A stretch of 64,000 nt of DNA from an uncultured Alphaproteobacteria bacterium. Its GTDB lineage: Bacteria; Pseudomonadota; Alphaproteobacteria; CADEGL01. The notes under the pieces are model-generated. The model saw only the letters and a list, made by a program, of their open reading frames with translations. It made no database searches and had not been told where the DNA came from. Position numbers and translations under genes: made by a program. The number at the start of each line of letters is the position of its first letter. Position 1 is the first letter of the stretch. Below, piece after piece: positions 9,807 to 17,650 of this stretch. Location: the NCBI GenBank assembly GCA_902826885.1, contig CADEGL010000009.1:1-64000 (forward strand), written 5' to 3'.

Positions 9807-9907
9807 GGCGATGGATCTCCCTTGGGCTTATGGCCGGTGACGGCATAACTGGACCGTCCAGCGCGGGCAGGTCAAGATTATCAGCAACTCTTCAAGGGGA
9901 GGGAGAC

Positions 9908-10210
9908 ATGTTCGCGCGCGTAAACCGCTTCGAAGTCGCCGACGGTAAGTCCCAGGAACTACAGGCCGCCTATAAGAAGACGATCGATATCGTGAAACAG
10001 GAGAAGGGCTTCGAGGAGGCGATCCTGATGATCGAGTCCGAAACGGGTCAGGCCGTGTCGGTCACGCTCTGGGACACGAAGGAGAACATGGAGCGGACGG
10101 GGACAGCCGGTCCGGGCACGTTGCTAGAGAAAATCCTTCCTATCGTCCGCCCGTTCCAGAAAGCGCCGCCCGTACACAAGCATTATGAAGTGAAGTTGAG
10201 GGTCAAGTAA
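9908..10210 (+). CDS. ABM/dimeric alpha-beta-barrel small protein
   Basis: A 100-residue cytosolic protein with the antibiotic-biosynthesis-monooxygenase-like fold (ferredoxin-like dimeric barrel): an N-terminal strand MFARVNRFEVADGKSQE, a helix with KKTIDIVKQEKGFEEAILMI, and a ...SVTLWDTKENMER strand-helix. I start at the ATG at 9908, preceded by a GGGGAGGGAG ribosome-binding site. An in-frame extension to 9830 exists but has no such site and no homologous-looking sequence. The function is undefined; members include quinol monooxygenases and haem-degrading enzymes, and the catalytic residues of those are not evident. Confidence 0.7.
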   Translation: MFARVNRFEVADGKSQELQAAYKKTIDIVKQEKGFEEAILMIESETGQAVSVTLWDTKENMERTGTAGPGTLLEKILPIVRPFQKAPPVHKHYEVKLRVK

Positions 10211-10261: not shown

Positions 10262-10861
10262 ATGATCGGCCGCACCGCGACCGCCTGTCTCATTCTGCTT
10301 TGGGCATGCTTCGCCTTGACGGGTTGCTCGGCCCAATCGTCCTACTTCACGACCGTCAAAAAAATTCCGTGCGATGACTGCTCCAACGCGGCCGTATATG
10401 CCAACGGCATACAGGTGCGTCAGATCACGGGCGACGAAGGCAGCGACTGGTTCGGCCTGGCTCAGCTGGATCATGATTCCGTGCAGAAGGCGGTCGCCGG
10501 CTCGCTCGAGAACAACGGTGCGCTCGCTCAGGGCGGACAGTCGCCTCGCTACGCCTTGGATATCGACGTGAAAGCGGTAAAGATCAGAGCTGGCGTTGCG
10601 CGTCTCAACATGCGCTACACCTTGATAAGGCTGTCCGACTCGCGCACAGTTCTCGATACGGAGCTCGCCACCGGGGCTTCCGCTACGGGAAGCAATCCGG
10701 GTGATCTCGCCGCAGGCGCCGCTATCAAAGAAAATATCCGTGGCTTTATATACGTGTTGCTGACCGGAAAGATGCCTCCCCAGGATGCGAAGGGTACGCT
10801 AAGGGAGCGCAGGACTTGCACGGAGAATTGCCCCCAGCACGTTGATCCCGCCCGGCCGTGA
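10262..10861 (+). CDS. hypothetical outer-membrane/periplasmic lipoprotein
   Basis: A 199-residue protein with a clear lipoprotein signal: a hydrophobic core, then LTGC with the lipidated Cys at residue 22, followed by SAQSS. The mature part carries a CDDC pair (residues 37-40) and segments such as ALDIDVKAVKIRAG and MRYTLIRLSDSRTVLDTELATG, resembling the beta-rich fold of lipoproteins that share strands with LPS- or envelope-transport factors. Serine after the Cys predicts outer-membrane sorting. I do not recognise the family. It overlaps the upstream region of the ectoine-synthase-like gene, whose ATG follows 28 bp after this stop, so co-transcription is possible. Confidence 0.65.
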   Translation: MIGRTATACLILLWACFALTGCSAQSSYFTTVKKIPCDDCSNAAVYANGIQVRQITGDEGSDWFGLAQLDHDSVQKAVAGSLENNGALAQGGQSPRYALDIDVKAVKIRAGVARLNMRYTLIRLSDSRTVLDTELATGASATGSNPGDLAAGAAIKENIRGFIYVLLTGKMPPQDAKGTLRERRTCTENCPQHVDPARP

Positions 10862-10889
10862 ACGGCCGGCTTTATCCGGAGGATGTCCG

Positions 10890-11720
10890 ATGTTCGTACG
10901 AACGCTGAAGGAATTGGAATCGCTCGGGCGAGTCAAATCGCTGGTGAATGGCACCACGAAATCCGCGCGATTCCTGGTTGCCGCCGATGGGATGGGGTTT
11001 TCATACAACGAGAATCGGATCGGTGACGGCTCGGACGTCAATCTTTGGTACAAGCATCACTGGGAAGCCAACTACATCGTCTCGGGACACGGCGAAGTGA
11101 CCGATCTGACGACCGGCCAGAAATGGACGCTCGAAGCCGGCGTTCTCTACGTGGTCGGCCCCAATGACCGCCATCGCTTCCATGTGGCGGGAAAGGAGCA
11201 TCACCTGAGCGTGTTTTGTCCGCCGCTGCGGGGGGATGAAAAACATGACAAAGACGGTGCCTACGAAGCCAGCGGTTCCTTGCCGAAGAAAACCGACCGG
11301 CGAATGTTCGTGAAGCGTGCCGACGAGATGCGTGCCCAGGGCAAGGAGATGGTTGCTGCCAACGGCCAGGCGCGCACCATCCGTATGCTGACACAGGCCG
11401 ATGATCTGGGCTTCGGACTGTCAGACGTTCATCTAAAGGCGGGCGCGGATGCCAACCTTTGGTACAAGCACCATTGGGAGGCCAATCACATTCTTTCCGG
11501 CACGGGCGAGGTCACCGAGCTTTCCACCGGAAAGTCTTGGAAGCTCGAGCCGGGCATGGCCTACAACGTCGGTCCCAAGGATAGGCACAGGCTGCGCGCC
11601 CATACCGACCTGCATCTCATCAGCGTCTTCTGTCCACCGCTCCGGGGGGACGAGCAGCACGATGCGGATGGCGCGTTGGGGCCAAGCGGTCCGGTTCCGC
11701 CCGGCCCGGCGGACGGCTGA
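10890..11720 (+). CDS. tandem (duplicated) ectoine-synthase-like cupin protein
   Basis: A 276-residue protein made of two ectoine synthase (EctC) domains in tandem, residues ~1-127 and ~139-263; standard EctC is a single domain of about 130 residues. EctC cyclises N-gamma-acetyl-diaminobutyrate to ectoine using a metal bound by Glu, Tyr and His. These align with E59, Y87 and H95 in half one (WYKHHWEANY, LYVVGPNDRHRF) and E197, Y225 and H233 in half two (WYKHHWEANH, AYNVGPKDRHRL). Both halves end in the EctC signature CPPLRGDE.HD.DGA. The ATG at 10890 has a GGAGGA site 6 bp upstream; the longer in-frame start at 10842 lies inside the lipoprotein gene. No ectA, ectB or ectD is adjacent, so real substrate and role are open: a solitary synthase acting on imported precursor, or a neofunctionalised cupin. 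Confidence 0.82.
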   Translation: MFVRTLKELESLGRVKSLVNGTTKSARFLVAADGMGFSYNENRIGDGSDVNLWYKHHWEANYIVSGHGEVTDLTTGQKWTLEAGVLYVVGPNDRHRFHVAGKEHHLSVFCPPLRGDEKHDKDGAYEASGSLPKKTDRRMFVKRADEMRAQGKEMVAANGQARTIRMLTQADDLGFGLSDVHLKAGADANLWYKHHWEANHILSGTGEVTELSTGKSWKLEPGMAYNVGPKDRHRLRAHTDLHLISVFCPPLRGDEQHDADGALGPSGPVPPGPADG

Positions 11721-11728
11721 CATTTTTG

Positions 11729-11758
11729 GCGGTATCCGGAAACGGCCGGATACCGCCA
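11729..11758. repeat. perfect 12-bp inverted repeat after the EctC-like gene
   Basis: GGCGGTATCCGG (11729-11740), a 6-nt loop and its exact complement CCGGATACCGCC (11747-11758) start 8 bp after the stop codon. There is no T-tract on either strand, so it is not a canonical intrinsic terminator. It may act as a 3'-end stabilising hairpin or with Rho. Confidence 0.7.
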
Positions 11759-11844
11759 ATTCCACGGGAATAAATCTTCCGGTTGGGCGTCTTCCTTGAA
11801 GGCGTATGCACGCATGCGCGTTTGAAAATTCAAGGAGGCCGCGC

Positions 11845-13970: not shown

Positions 13971-14048
13971 TGTCTGCCGTGGTTAGGATCGCCGTTAATA
14001 AATTTAGGCAGGATGTCTGCCGTGACAGAGAACGGGAGGAGTCCGGTG

Positions 14049-14375
14049 ATGGAGACGAAAACGGCGCAGAAGCAAGACGAGAGGGTTGTCGCCGCGCGAC
14101 GCCGCTTTCTTGCGAACTGCGGCAAGTTCGCCGTCGTTACACCGCCTGTCGTGTCGCTGATGTTGGCCGCGTCGGAGCGGAATTATGCGGTCGCGAATTC
14201 TTCCAACCATGGCGGCGGGCACGGCGGTCATGGCGGTTCCCATGGTCGCGGTCACAGCCATGGCCGCGGGCATAGTAATGGAGGAGGGCGAGGCGGGCAT
14301 AGCAATGGCCGTGGGCGCGGCGGCCGGGGTGAAGCCCGTAACCGCGGGGGAGACCACGATCGTTGGCGCGGCTGA
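14049..14375 (+). CDS. small Tat-like Gly/His-rich protein, candidate modified peptide
   Basis: A 108-residue protein with two parts. The N-terminal ~45 residues carry a twin-arginine-like leader: ARRRFLANCGKFAVVTPPVV followed by a short hydrophobic stretch. From about residue 50 on, the chain is almost entirely Gly, His, Arg, Asn and Ser, with HSNG and GHGG repeats and no Cys. A GGGAGGAG site sits 7 bp before the ATG at 14049; an upstream in-frame ATG at 14013 would incorporate that site. A strong terminator follows. It lies next to and convergent with the nucleotidyltransferase/PqqD-HprK operon. I do not recognise a named family. It could be an exported metal-binding or structural protein, or the substrate of the neighbouring kinase and nucleotidyltransferase (inference). 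Confidence 0.72.
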   Translation: METKTAQKQDERVVAARRRFLANCGKFAVVTPPVVSLMLAASERNYAVANSSNHGGGHGGHGGSHGRGHSHGRGHSNGGGRGGHSNGRGRGGRGEARNRGGDHDRWRG

Positions 14376-14397
14376 CGCGGCTGGAATTCAGAAGGCA

Positions 14398-14430
14398 AAC
14401 GGCGGGCTTGAAGGCCCGCCGTTTTTCTTT
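14398..14430 (+). terminator. intrinsic terminator between convergent genes
   Basis: AACGGCGGGC (14398-14407) pairs exactly with GCCCGCCGTT (14414-14423) across a 6-nt loop and runs into TTTTTCTTT (from 14422). It terminates the Gly/His-rich gene; on the minus strand the stem is followed by only three T's, so it is a weak stop for the nucleotidyltransferase operon. Confidence 0.88.
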
Positions 14431-14434
14431 GTGC

Positions 14435-15547
14435 TCAATGCGTGCGGAAGACACGCCGCGCAATGACCCGCGCTCTGCTCTTGCGCACGAAATGCCAGGC
14501 GTGGATGGCCCGCAAGCCGAGAAGGGGTATCCCTTCCCCATAAAGATTACGCATGCGGTGCCAGGCGAGGGCGCCGCGGAGATTGCCCAGCGGGGCCATA
14601 GCCTGAGGGATTTGTGGCGCCAGCAAGCCGGCAAGACATTGCGCCAGGTATATCCGGCTGATCGCACCCGGTCGCGCGGCCAGGGGCCAAGGCGCGTTGA
14701 AAAAGTGCCTTGCCGCCAGCAAGTAGGTTTGCAACGGACGATGCAGGCGGTGGGCTCGCAGTCGAGCCTCTATGAACGACCAGTCGACCGCCGGGCCAAA
14801 GCGGTGCATCGCGACCGCCAGGTCATACAGTTGGTGTAGATCCAGCACACCTCGATAGAAGTCCCCGAGGAAATGCACTTGCGCGTGCAGAATGTTGTGG
14901 AACACGAAATCGGTCGGGCAGGGCGCGCGCCAAGTCACGCCATCATGCTCATGCCGTTCGGAACGCGCCCAAACCTCTTCCGCGCCCAGCACATGCTTGG
15001 GGTCAACCAGCTCGACATGTAGATCCAGCGCGGCCGGATCATGCGGCCGCCGCAGTTCGGCGTGGGCGTGATGGCCGGCGGGGAAACGCTGGTCGACGCG
15101 ATAGCCGAGCGCATGAAGCGCATCGAGGGCGTTCGGAAGATCCTGCGGCTTTATCATCACGTCGATGTCGCGCAGCATCCGCACGCCCGCGCCACGATGA
15201 AGTTTGCCGAGCAATGTCCCGCAACCCTTGAGCAGCATGGCTTCGACGCCGTGCTTTCCCAAGTGATCGAGCATTTCCAGTGCTTGACGGCGTAGGGTCG
15301 CGTTGCGCCGTGCGTTCTCGCGGTATAGGTAGCCGAGGTAACGCCGCACTTCCACGGGCAGCTCGGCCAATGCGTCGCCATGGAGAAGGGAGGCGTAGAC
15401 GGCCGGGCCGAGCAGGTGGGCATTGGCCACACGCAAGGGTTCGGTCCAATCACGCACCATACGCCGCCGGCGCGCGGCGTCGGCCCCGCCAGTGCCGGGT
15501 TTCAGCGCGCCCGACAGGATTGCCAGGCCGCGCGCGGTTCCGATCAT
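14435..15547 (-). CDS. nucleotidyltransferase-family protein (NTP_transf_5 type)
   Basis: A 370-residue protein of the putative nucleotidyltransferase family PF14907. The N-terminal helical region is followed by LLKGCGTLL (K107), then MLRDIDVMIK with the metal-binding D127 and D129, and a DLHVEL strand providing the third acidic residue. A helical C-terminal half follows. Such proteins are expected to transfer NMP to a protein, peptide or small molecule; no substrate is established. It starts at the ATG at 15547, whose ATGA overlaps the stop of the PqqD-HprK gene, so the two are translationally coupled. It is the last gene of a galU operon. Confidence 0.8.
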   Translation of the reverse strand: MIGTARGLAILSGALKPGTGGADAARRRRMVRDWTEPLRVANAHLLGPAVYASLLHGDALAELPVEVRRYLGYLYRENARRNATLRRQALEMLDHLGKHGVEAMLLKGCGTLLGKLHRGAGVRMLRDIDVMIKPQDLPNALDALHALGYRVDQRFPAGHHAHAELRRPHDPAALDLHVELVDPKHVLGAEEVWARSERHEHDGVTWRAPCPTDFVFHNILHAQVHFLGDFYRGVLDLHQLYDLAVAMHRFGPAVDWSFIEARLRAHRLHRPLQTYLLAARHFFNAPWPLAARPGAISRIYLAQCLAGLLAPQIPQAMAPLGNLRGALAWHRMRNLYGEGIPLLGLRAIHAWHFVRKSRARVIARRVFRTH

Positions 15548-16722
15548 GCGCAAAGCAGTTGCAGGCGCGCGACGGCCTCGTCGAGTTCGCCATAGCGCAA
15601 ATCATGGCATTCGACGCGCGCGATCCATTCGACCAGCCGCTCGACCTTGGCTGCGTCGAGTTGCTCGCCTAGCGGGCAACAGCCCTCCATCAGGCGGTGT
15701 AGCGCCTCCGTGCGCGTAATCTCCTGCATGCGTAGCGAGGCGCCTTCGACATAGTGCGGGAAGACGATCCAGCCCACGGGGAGGTGCCGCGATTCTCGAA
15801 ACAGCGATAGGCGCGGCGGCAACAGATAGCGCACGCGAATGCCATCGATGCGGGTATGGACCGGCAGGTCCATGATTTGCGGCGCCCGGCCCGCGAGGGC
15901 AGACCAAGCGCCGGTCTTGAGGCAAGCGCCGAACGGCATGGTGCGCATGGCGGGCGCGGCGTCATCCGAGAGAATCATCGTGTCATCGCTCATCAGCGCG
16001 AAGCCGGTCATGGCCAGGGCCGCGGACAGGGTGCTTTTGCCGCGTCCGGACGCGCCGGGAAGGAGAAGGCATCGCCCCCCGCGCGCGAGCCCCGCCGCAT
16101 GGAAGGCGGCCAGGTCGCGGCTTTCCTTCAGAACCAGGCCGACCAACAGGGCTTTCAGTGTCGGAACAATTTCTTCGGGCCCGTGGCAGTACTCTACGGC
16201 GGCTTCGTCTATTCTGATCTCGCAATGATGGCCGCTGGCGGGAACGATTTCGACAAGGACGTCGCCCGCGCTAGACGACGCCGCGGACAACGCGGCCAGC
16301 GTAGGCTCCACGATGCGGGCATAGGGCGGAGGACAGCGAAGAGCGATCGACAAATCCAGCAAACGGTAGTGCCGCACGTCTGATGCGCGCACCGCCGCGC
16401 GATTCGGCGCTTGCGCCGTCTTGCCGTTGATGGCGTGTTCGACCTCGCCGTTCGAAGAGGCCGGGCCAACCAGCTTCAACGCGTGCCATTGGCGCAATGC
16501 CTGGCTGATGGCGGCACGAGCCGCGGCAGGCGCCATGTCGAATCGTTCGGCCATCGAGTCCGCGATCGCGGACGGCGTCATGCCTTCCTCCAGACAGCAC
16601 CAAATGAACGTCGCGGTGGTGTTCGAGGAATAGAGGCACTGACGCGCGGAATCGAACAGCACAGCCTCGGTGTCCAAGAAATGGAGGCTGATATGCTCGG
16701 CCTGCCGGATTTCGCCGACCAT
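15544..16722 (-). CDS. PqqD-like domain fused to HprK-related serine kinase
   Basis: A 392-residue two-domain protein. Residues ~8-92 form a PqqD-like winged-helix module (RiPP recognition element type), with LDTEAVLFDSARQCLYSSN and TATFIWCCLEEGMTPSAIA. Residues ~115-390 form an HPr kinase/phosphatase-like domain with Walker A GASGRGKST (223-231) and an SDDT motif (245-248) that includes the HprK-type acidic pair. HprK-like enzymes phosphorylate Ser in proteins or, in some lasso-peptide clusters, in ribosomal peptides. The two modules are commonly separate genes (the 'HPr-rel-A' arrangement). The ATG at 16722 follows the galU stop by one base; a further ATG at 16758 inside galU is an alternative start. 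No PTS HPr gene is nearby. Confidence 0.82.
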   Translation of the reverse strand: MVGEIRQAEHISLHFLDTEAVLFDSARQCLYSSNTTATFIWCCLEEGMTPSAIADSMAERFDMAPAAARAAISQALRQWHALKLVGPASSNGEVEHAINGKTAQAPNRAAVRASDVRHYRLLDLSIALRCPPPYARIVEPTLAALSAASSSAGDVLVEIVPASGHHCEIRIDEAAVEYCHGPEEIVPTLKALLVGLVLKESRDLAAFHAAGLARGGRCLLLPGASGRGKSTLSAALAMTGFALMSDDTMILSDDAAPAMRTMPFGACLKTGAWSALAGRAPQIMDLPVHTRIDGIRVRYLLPPRLSLFRESRHLPVGWIVFPHYVEGASLRMQEITRTEALHRLMEGCCPLGEQLDAAKVERLVEWIARVECHDLRYGELDEAVARLQLLCA

Positions 16723-16723
16723 G

Positions 16724-17650
16724 TCAGGCGTTGAGGATGCGTGGGCGGTAGGCGTCATCGCCGTTCGAGAGCGGTTTGGGCATACTGTGCTGGCGCGCGA
16801 TCTCGCGCGCGGCCTCGCCCATATCGGCCCGTTCCATGGCGAACGCCATGGTGGCCTCCAGGAAGCCGACCTTGTCGCCGCAATCGAACCGCCGCCCTTC
16901 GAACCGATAGCCGTGAAACGGTTCTTCGCCGATGGTCAGGGCCAATGCGTCGGTGAGCTGGATTTCTCCACCCGTGCCTTGCTTCAGGCGGCTTAGATGC
17001 GAGAACACGCTGGGTTGCAGGATATAGCGCCCGATGATCGAAAGGGTGGAAGGCGCCTCGGCCGGGGATGGCTTTTCCACCACGGTGCGCGCCGCGATCA
17101 GGCGGCCCTGGGTACGCAGGACGTCGAGCACGCCGTAGCGGTCGACTTGCGAGCGCGGCACATCCATCACGGCGACCAAGTTTCCACCCGTGCTTGCATG
17201 CGCCGTCATCATCTGCCCTAGGCACGGTTCTTCGGCCTGCACCAGATCGTCGGCCAGCAGCACCGCGAAAGGCTCGTCGCCGACCAGCGTGCGCGCGCAC
17301 CAGACGGCATGACCCAGGCCCAACGGCGCGGGCTGGCGGACATACGCGACCTTGCCCGCGGAGGGCAGCCAGCGCCGAATAGCGTCCAGTTCCTTGGTCT
17401 TACCGCGCGCGGCCAAGAACTTTTCCAGCTCATTGGCCTGGTCGAAATGGTCTTCGATCGCGGACTTGCCGCGCCCGGTAACGAAGATGAATTCCTCGAT
17501 GCCGGCGGCTTGCGCCTCCTCGACCGCGTATTGGATCAGGGGTTTGTCGATGATCGGCAGCATTTCCTTGGGCATGGCCTTTGTCGCCGGCAGAAAGCGA
17601 GTGCCGAGCCCGCCTACTGGAAAGACCGCCTTTTTCACGCGCTGCGCCAT
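16724..17650 (-). CDS. galU: UTP-glucose-1-phosphate uridylyltransferase
   Basis: A 308-residue enzyme that makes UDP-glucose from UTP and glucose 1-phosphate, the donor for many surface glycans. The N-terminal nucleotide-binding signature GGLGTRFLPATKAMPKEM is at residues 13-30, followed by DKPLIQYAVEEA, GLGHAVWCA, the LLADDLV metal-binding strand and a VEKP loop. The start is the ATG at 17650, just downstream of a GGAGGA site; a longer in-frame reading to 17887 adds non-homologous residues. It is the first gene of the operon with the PqqD-HprK and nucleotidyltransferase genes, implying that those two serve glycan production or its control. Confidence 0.95.
   Translation of the reverse strand: MAQRVKKAVFPVGGLGTRFLPATKAMPKEMLPIIDKPLIQYAVEEAQAAGIEEFIFVTGRGKSAIEDHFDQANELEKFLAARGKTKELDAIRRWLPSAGKVAYVRQPAPLGLGHAVWCARTLVGDEPFAVLLADDLVQAEEPCLGQMMTAHASTGGNLVAVMDVPRSQVDRYGVLDVLRTQGRLIAARTVVEKPSPAEAPSTLSIIGRYILQPSVFSHLSRLKQGTGGEIQLTDALALTIGEEPFHGYRFEGRRFDCGDKVGFLEATMAFAMERADMGEAAREIARQHSMPKPLSNGDDAYRPRILNA

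Follow-up and report, generated by a model that had tools for sequence, protein, structure and literature searches.

Proteins in which two EctC-type (ectoine synthase) cupin domains are joined in one chain constitute a real, previously undescribed family, which, judging from its sequences, has probably moved away from ectoine synthesis. Of this account, the fusion and the lost ectoine pocket are firm; the catabolic role that we propose is its weak part. In the open-licence literature searched, we found no paper describing EctC in fused or tandem form, or together with Rieske or demethylase genes. What orphan EctC proteins do is a question that the ectoine literature leaves open (PMC5924519, PMC6344544), and the fused family bears on it in two ways: in its natural variation the metal site and the ectoine pocket come apart, and it supplies candidate pathway partners.

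Two complete EctC domains share one chain

The gene under study lies in a 64,000-nucleotide stretch of DNA from an uncultured alphaproteobacterium, the whole of which we call the window (Table 1). A sequence-only reading had described two EctC domains in one chain, each with its E, Y and H metal ligands and a terminal CPPLRGDE.HD motif, and all three features were borne out. The EctC profile PF06339 makes two full matches within the single open frame (whole protein E 6.5e-69; 230.5 bits against a cut-off of 27), the predicted ligands are E59/Y87/H95 and E197/Y225/H233, and the terminal motif is present in both halves, as CPPLRGDEKHD and CPPLRGDEQHD. In PlEctC, the iron ligands are Glu57, Tyr84, and His92 (PMC6344544). 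The halves are identical at 68 of 132 residues. NF009806, the NCBIfam ectoine synthase model, also takes in the protein (238.2 bits against a cut-off of 128), but its two domains share one frame, whereas EctC is a homodimer of single domains.

An AlphaFold2 model built with 28 relatives (pLDDT 94.8, pTM 0.92) packs two cupin barrels in one chain and superposes on bicupins over residues 1–269 (Z about 22, 10–15% identity), with DR1152, YlbA, ureidoglycine aminohydrolase, and quercetin dioxygenase among the whole-length fold matches. The model supports a built-in pair of predicted barrels; it neither demonstrates a copy of the EctC homodimer interface nor informs on function. (S)-ureidoglycine aminohydrolase/YlbA and the quercetin dioxygenase YxaG likewise carry two barrels per chain, but an independent origin is likely, the tandem protein deriving from EctC, and for (S)-ureidoglycine aminohydrolase the likeness (12–13% identity) is one of fold alone.

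Table 1. Features of the window in and around the tandem EctC gene
Feature	Position	Strand	Details
Tandem EctC-type bicupin ORF	10890..11720	+	ATG 10890, stop 11718-11720, 276 aa
N-terminal EctC cupin domain	10890..11270	+	PF06339 E 1.1e-33
C-terminal EctC cupin domain	11304..11675	+	PF06339 E 3.2e-33
N-half predicted metal ligands	11064..11174	+	E59 11064-11066, Y87 11148-11150, H95 11172-11174
C-half predicted metal ligands	11478..11588	+	E197 11478-11480, Y225 11562-11564, H233 11586-11588
RBS-like GGAGGA	10878..10883	+	6 nt before ATG of tandem EctC
14-bp perfect hairpin, terminator-like or 3' end element	11726..11759	+	directly past stop; core kept in G001
Lipoprotein-like gene, upstream	10262..10861	+	199 aa; kept in G001, absent from more distant relatives
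ABM-domain (antibiotic biosynthesis monooxygenase-type) small protein, upstream	9830..10210	+	kept in G001
NTP_transf_5 protein	14435-15553	-	beside His/Gly-rich small protein
Protein with PqqD domain	15544-16758	-	404 aa; beside His/Gly-rich small protein

The neighbours of the window gene encode an aldo-keto reductase, the ABM protein, the lipoprotein, and a TylF-like protein, and a promoter scan returned sites no more frequently than in shuffles. Elsewhere in the window, at 14013–16758, a 120-aa His/Gly-rich small protein (HGGGHGGHGG...) lies near the NTP_transf_5 and PqqD-domain proteins, in what looks like a peptide-modification or envelope cluster.

Metal ligands are kept while the ectoine pocket is lost

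We aligned the 98 halves of 49 tandem proteins, together with 69 single EctCs, to PlEctC and read the pocket at EctC positions 21, 23, 25, 38, 40, 52, 57, 84, 92, 104, and 106. True EctCs almost all read W-S-R-H/N-T-Y-E-Y-H-C-F, with Trp21 and Thr40 present; the window protein reads T S R N N Y E Y H S F in its N half and A T R S V Y E Y H S F in its C half, with T/N and A/V, respectively, at these two substrate positions. Across the family, 97 of the 98 halves have lost Trp21 (present in no N half and one C half) and none retains Thr40; most C halves have Ser at position 38, and Cys104 has become Ser. Of the 49 N and 49 C halves, by contrast, 47 and 46 retain Glu57, 48 and 43 retain Tyr84 (5 more have Phe), and 46 and 48 retain His92, and Arg25, Tyr52, and Phe106 are mostly retained as well. 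Ligands kept and Trp21/Thr40 lost point to a metal chemistry that is retained and an ectoine pocket that is not. In some members of gene arrays, metal ligands are lost from one half (L053_7587, L068_9945).

In EctC crystal structures, Thr40 holds the alpha-amino group of the substrate and Trp21 presses on its chain (PMC6344544). Activity falls to 26%, 21%, and 12% in the SaEctC mutants Trp21Ala, Ser23Ala, and Thr40Ala, with iron fully retained where measured (PMC4795551), and to 9.7% in PlEctC Trp21Ala (PMC6344544). Conservation of this Trp is stated for 437 operon-encoded and 145 orphan EctCs (PMC6344544). With both residues gone, N-gamma-acetyl-diaminobutyrate is probably not the substrate, and ectoine production by a tandem EctC is unlikely on these residues, although a residue change alone is no proof of lost ectoine synthase activity, single mutants retaining 10–26%.

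The suggestion that neither half is degenerate therefore holds for predicted metal binding but not for the pocket of a true ectoine synthase, from which Trp21 and Thr40 are missing. A built-in dimer had also been suggested; one compact bicupin is predicted, but because the two window pockets are unlike at positions 21, 23, 38, and 40, the dimer would be unequal. This inequality suggests that a single main catalytic site is accompanied by an auxiliary or second-step one.

Tandem EctC occurs where EctA is not found

A whole-genome profile search of the window's genome (3.87 Mb in 134 contigs, reported 96.9% complete) found no EctA anywhere and no EctB above the curated cut-off of 552 bits (generic aminotransferases only, the best scoring 173 bits), extending genome-wide an absence of ectA and ectB first remarked near the gene. 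The EctB search covered this genome; EctA was sought in 22 tandem-carrying genomes, none of which gave a match over the cut-off. The window's genome encodes two further tandem EctCs, at C31:3226-4047 and from C4:103724 onward (the end of the latter gene reads N), and one orphan single-domain EctC (C25:27585-27959), which is flanked by two EamA-type permeases and whose pocket, GSRTTYEYHCF, also lacks the Trp.

Could the tandem protein nevertheless be a working ectoine synthase, a built-in dimer that cyclises imported precursor, a role already proposed for the Pseudomonas syringae orphan EctC? Its metal ligands, Arg25, Tyr52, and Phe106 are retained, NCBIfam assigns it to ectoine synthase, and orphan single EctCs are common (PMC5924519). 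We consider this highly improbable, however, since both halves lack Trp21 and Thr40 while published EctCs conserve the Trp (PMC6344544), EctA is found in 0/22 carriers, and a single genome without ectA holds three tandem paralogues plus a single EctC. Because those residues are absent and none of the 22 carriers searched has EctA, an imported ectoine precursor is unlikely, and of the two substrates entertained by the sequence-only reading, it is the different amino-acid derivative that is favoured. The automatic "ectoine synthase" annotation is probably wrong for tandem genes, from which ectoine synthesis should not be predicted.

Compared with EctC (PF06339, NF009806; 5ONM/5ONN/5ONO, 5BXX), tandem proteins share the cupin fold, the E/Y/H ligands, Arg25, Tyr52, Phe106, and the C-terminal lid motif, but differ in having two domains per chain, no Trp21 or Thr40, Ser for Cys104, unequal pockets, and no EctA in the carriers searched. 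Orphan single-domain EctCs (Czech 2018 groups 1–3) resemble them in lying outside an ectABC cluster and in often having Ser at position 104; unlike tandem proteins, they are described with the Trp kept, and no fused form appears in the literature searched.

The family is broadly but patchily distributed, forms arrays, and fits one old fusion

Tandem EctC occurs in about 28 genomes of Alphaproteobacteria, Gammaproteobacteria, and Binatota, many of them metagenome bins; Dongia deserti SYSU D60009 and Taklimakanibacter lacteus SYSU D60012 are named strains among the 28. All five examined genomes of the window's order carry it, two of them with four such genes consecutively, and genome_contigs yielded 31 tandem loci (Dongia deserti, Taklimakanibacter lacteus, Rhodospirillaceae, Hyphomicrobiales, and gammaproteobacterial and Binatota bins). 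PF06339 is present in 39 of 385 sampled genomes of the class, in clearly tandem form in only 7, and among 398 sampled genomes of the phylum, tandem EctC was found in the window's own genome only. Among plasmids there are 118 matching records; in each of the 30 listed, both pieces overlap the same ~360–475 bases, indicating a single domain. Arrays of 3–6 tandem genes occur in some genomes, the longest being six in a row (L053:5481-11722; 12 EctC domains) and five in a row (L055:1187-5189), with others at L068:7036-11185, G003:C194, and G004:C81.

That the gene is an assembly or duplication artefact is a negligible prospect. The source genome is fragmented and many relatives are bins, but the halves are unlike at half of their residues, the carriers include named strains, and an 87%-identical orthologue occupies the same genomic place in a second genome (G001); the relatives carrying tandem EctC refute this explanation.

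A phylogeny of each half against single EctC had been proposed; in a domain tree of 127 columns, many forks of which are open, one branch with support 92 splits tandem-type rows from 51 other single EctCs. Some N and C halves were scattered when the quick search ran unconstrained, but requiring either the N halves or the C halves to stay together raised the likelihood above that of the free search, by 9.9 and 13.5 log units, respectively (p-AU 0.75), with L053_8409, an array member whose halves are sisters, assigned to the C halves. One main fusion origin is compatible with these results, and a single old duplication-fusion followed by a few later rearrangements would fit them. Two free-standing C-type single-domain proteins are present (G166, G002), and free-standing C-half-type single domains, whose 700 upstream bases contain no N half, lie at L144:9415-9831 and L138:1145-1627.

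Both halves evolve under purifying selection, with dN/dS against the G001 orthologue of 0.11 for the N half and 0.03 for the C half (dN 0.148 and 0.019). The fast-changing N half, like the ligands lost from one half of L053_7587 and L068_9945, would suit a non-catalytic cupin that binds or senses a ligand as a regulator or chaperone. We regard such a role as very unlikely, given metal ligands that are invariant or nearly so in most members, the absence of a DNA-binding domain, and neighbours that are mostly enzymes and transporters.

Gene neighbourhoods and a possible catabolic role

Rieske oxygenase genes neighbour the C31 copy in the window's genome and tandem genes at L051, L055, L057, L061, L069, and L133. 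DMGDH-type FAD/GcvT proteins stand beside tandem genes at L043 (on both sides) and L137, GcvT genes lie inside the arrays L053 and L068, and TauD/PhyH dioxygenases, AspA-type deacylases, and an M24 DoeA-like protein also recur. We collapsed the loci by hand to 23 independent ones and took per-genome counts as background. A Rieske or FAO_M/DMGDH-type gene is the immediate neighbour at 5 of the 23, against 0.33 expected (Poisson p 2.5e-5), and 4 of the 23 have a Rieske gene within 4 kb, where 0.74 would be expected (p 0.007); because these families were picked after viewing, the p values are optimistic and the enrichment is suggestive only. The census used simple ORF calling, by which genes may be missed. 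The window gene has no neighbours from any of these recurrent families; G002:C60, one of its nearest relatives by sequence, has a DMGDH-type gene 35 bp away. Where they occur, such neighbours suggest catabolism of N-methylated or osmolyte-like amino acids.

We give an even chance to the reading that the protein is an EctC-derived fused iron bicupin acting on another amino-acid derivative, probably in catabolism. A single ancient fusion of two EctC-type cupins would have produced a one-chain bicupin, each half of which would bind Fe2+ or a similar metal through Glu-Tyr-His. As in EctC, the metal would serve as a Lewis acid towards a small amino-acid derivative, acting on its amide, amidine, or carboxylate group. 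The more constrained C half would be the one main catalytic site, and the N half an auxiliary or second-step site. The wider family would most likely help to break down or salvage amino acids of N-methylated or osmolyte type, alongside Rieske/DMGDH-type demethylases.

An enzyme working in the reverse sense, by metal-dependent hydrolysis of an ectoine-like cyclic amidine, lactam, or N-acyl amino acid, would feed EutE/AspA-type deacylases and M24 EutD-like enzymes. EctC itself has a minor ectoine-hydrolysing activity (PMC4795551), and the fold resembles that of ureidoglycine aminohydrolase. AstE/AspA deacylases adjoin tandem genes in L053, L068, and L133, an M24 DoeA-like gene is found in L045 and an M20 deacylase in L054, and the M24 EutD/ectoine-hydrolase model gives 38 EutD/creatinase-like matches in the window's genome (best 562 bits against a cut-off of 613). 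We judge this hydrolase unlikely, as the M24/AspA-type neighbours score far under the ectoine-specific models or match none, and are missing at most loci. The 38 matches suggest an organism that may be well stocked with enzymes acting on small amino-acid derivatives; four score 440–562 bits, and two of these adjoin Rieske oxygenase genes (C5, C19).

Taking the fused catabolic bicupin further, we consider it possible, if doubtful, that one EctC-type fusion gave rise to a distinct enzyme family whose two iron sites are unequal and which catalyses a new reaction in N-methylated or osmolyte-type amino-acid breakdown, the arrays of up to six genes being an enzyme set with different substrates.

Orphan single EctCs outside the tandem family have neighbours of their own: ehuBCD and amidase genes in Rhizobium bangladeshense p4 (L161), an amidase and oxidoreductases in Caballeronia (L159), and a non-ribosomal peptide synthetase in Mycetohabitans (L162). 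These settings suggest other uses of EctC-type proteins.
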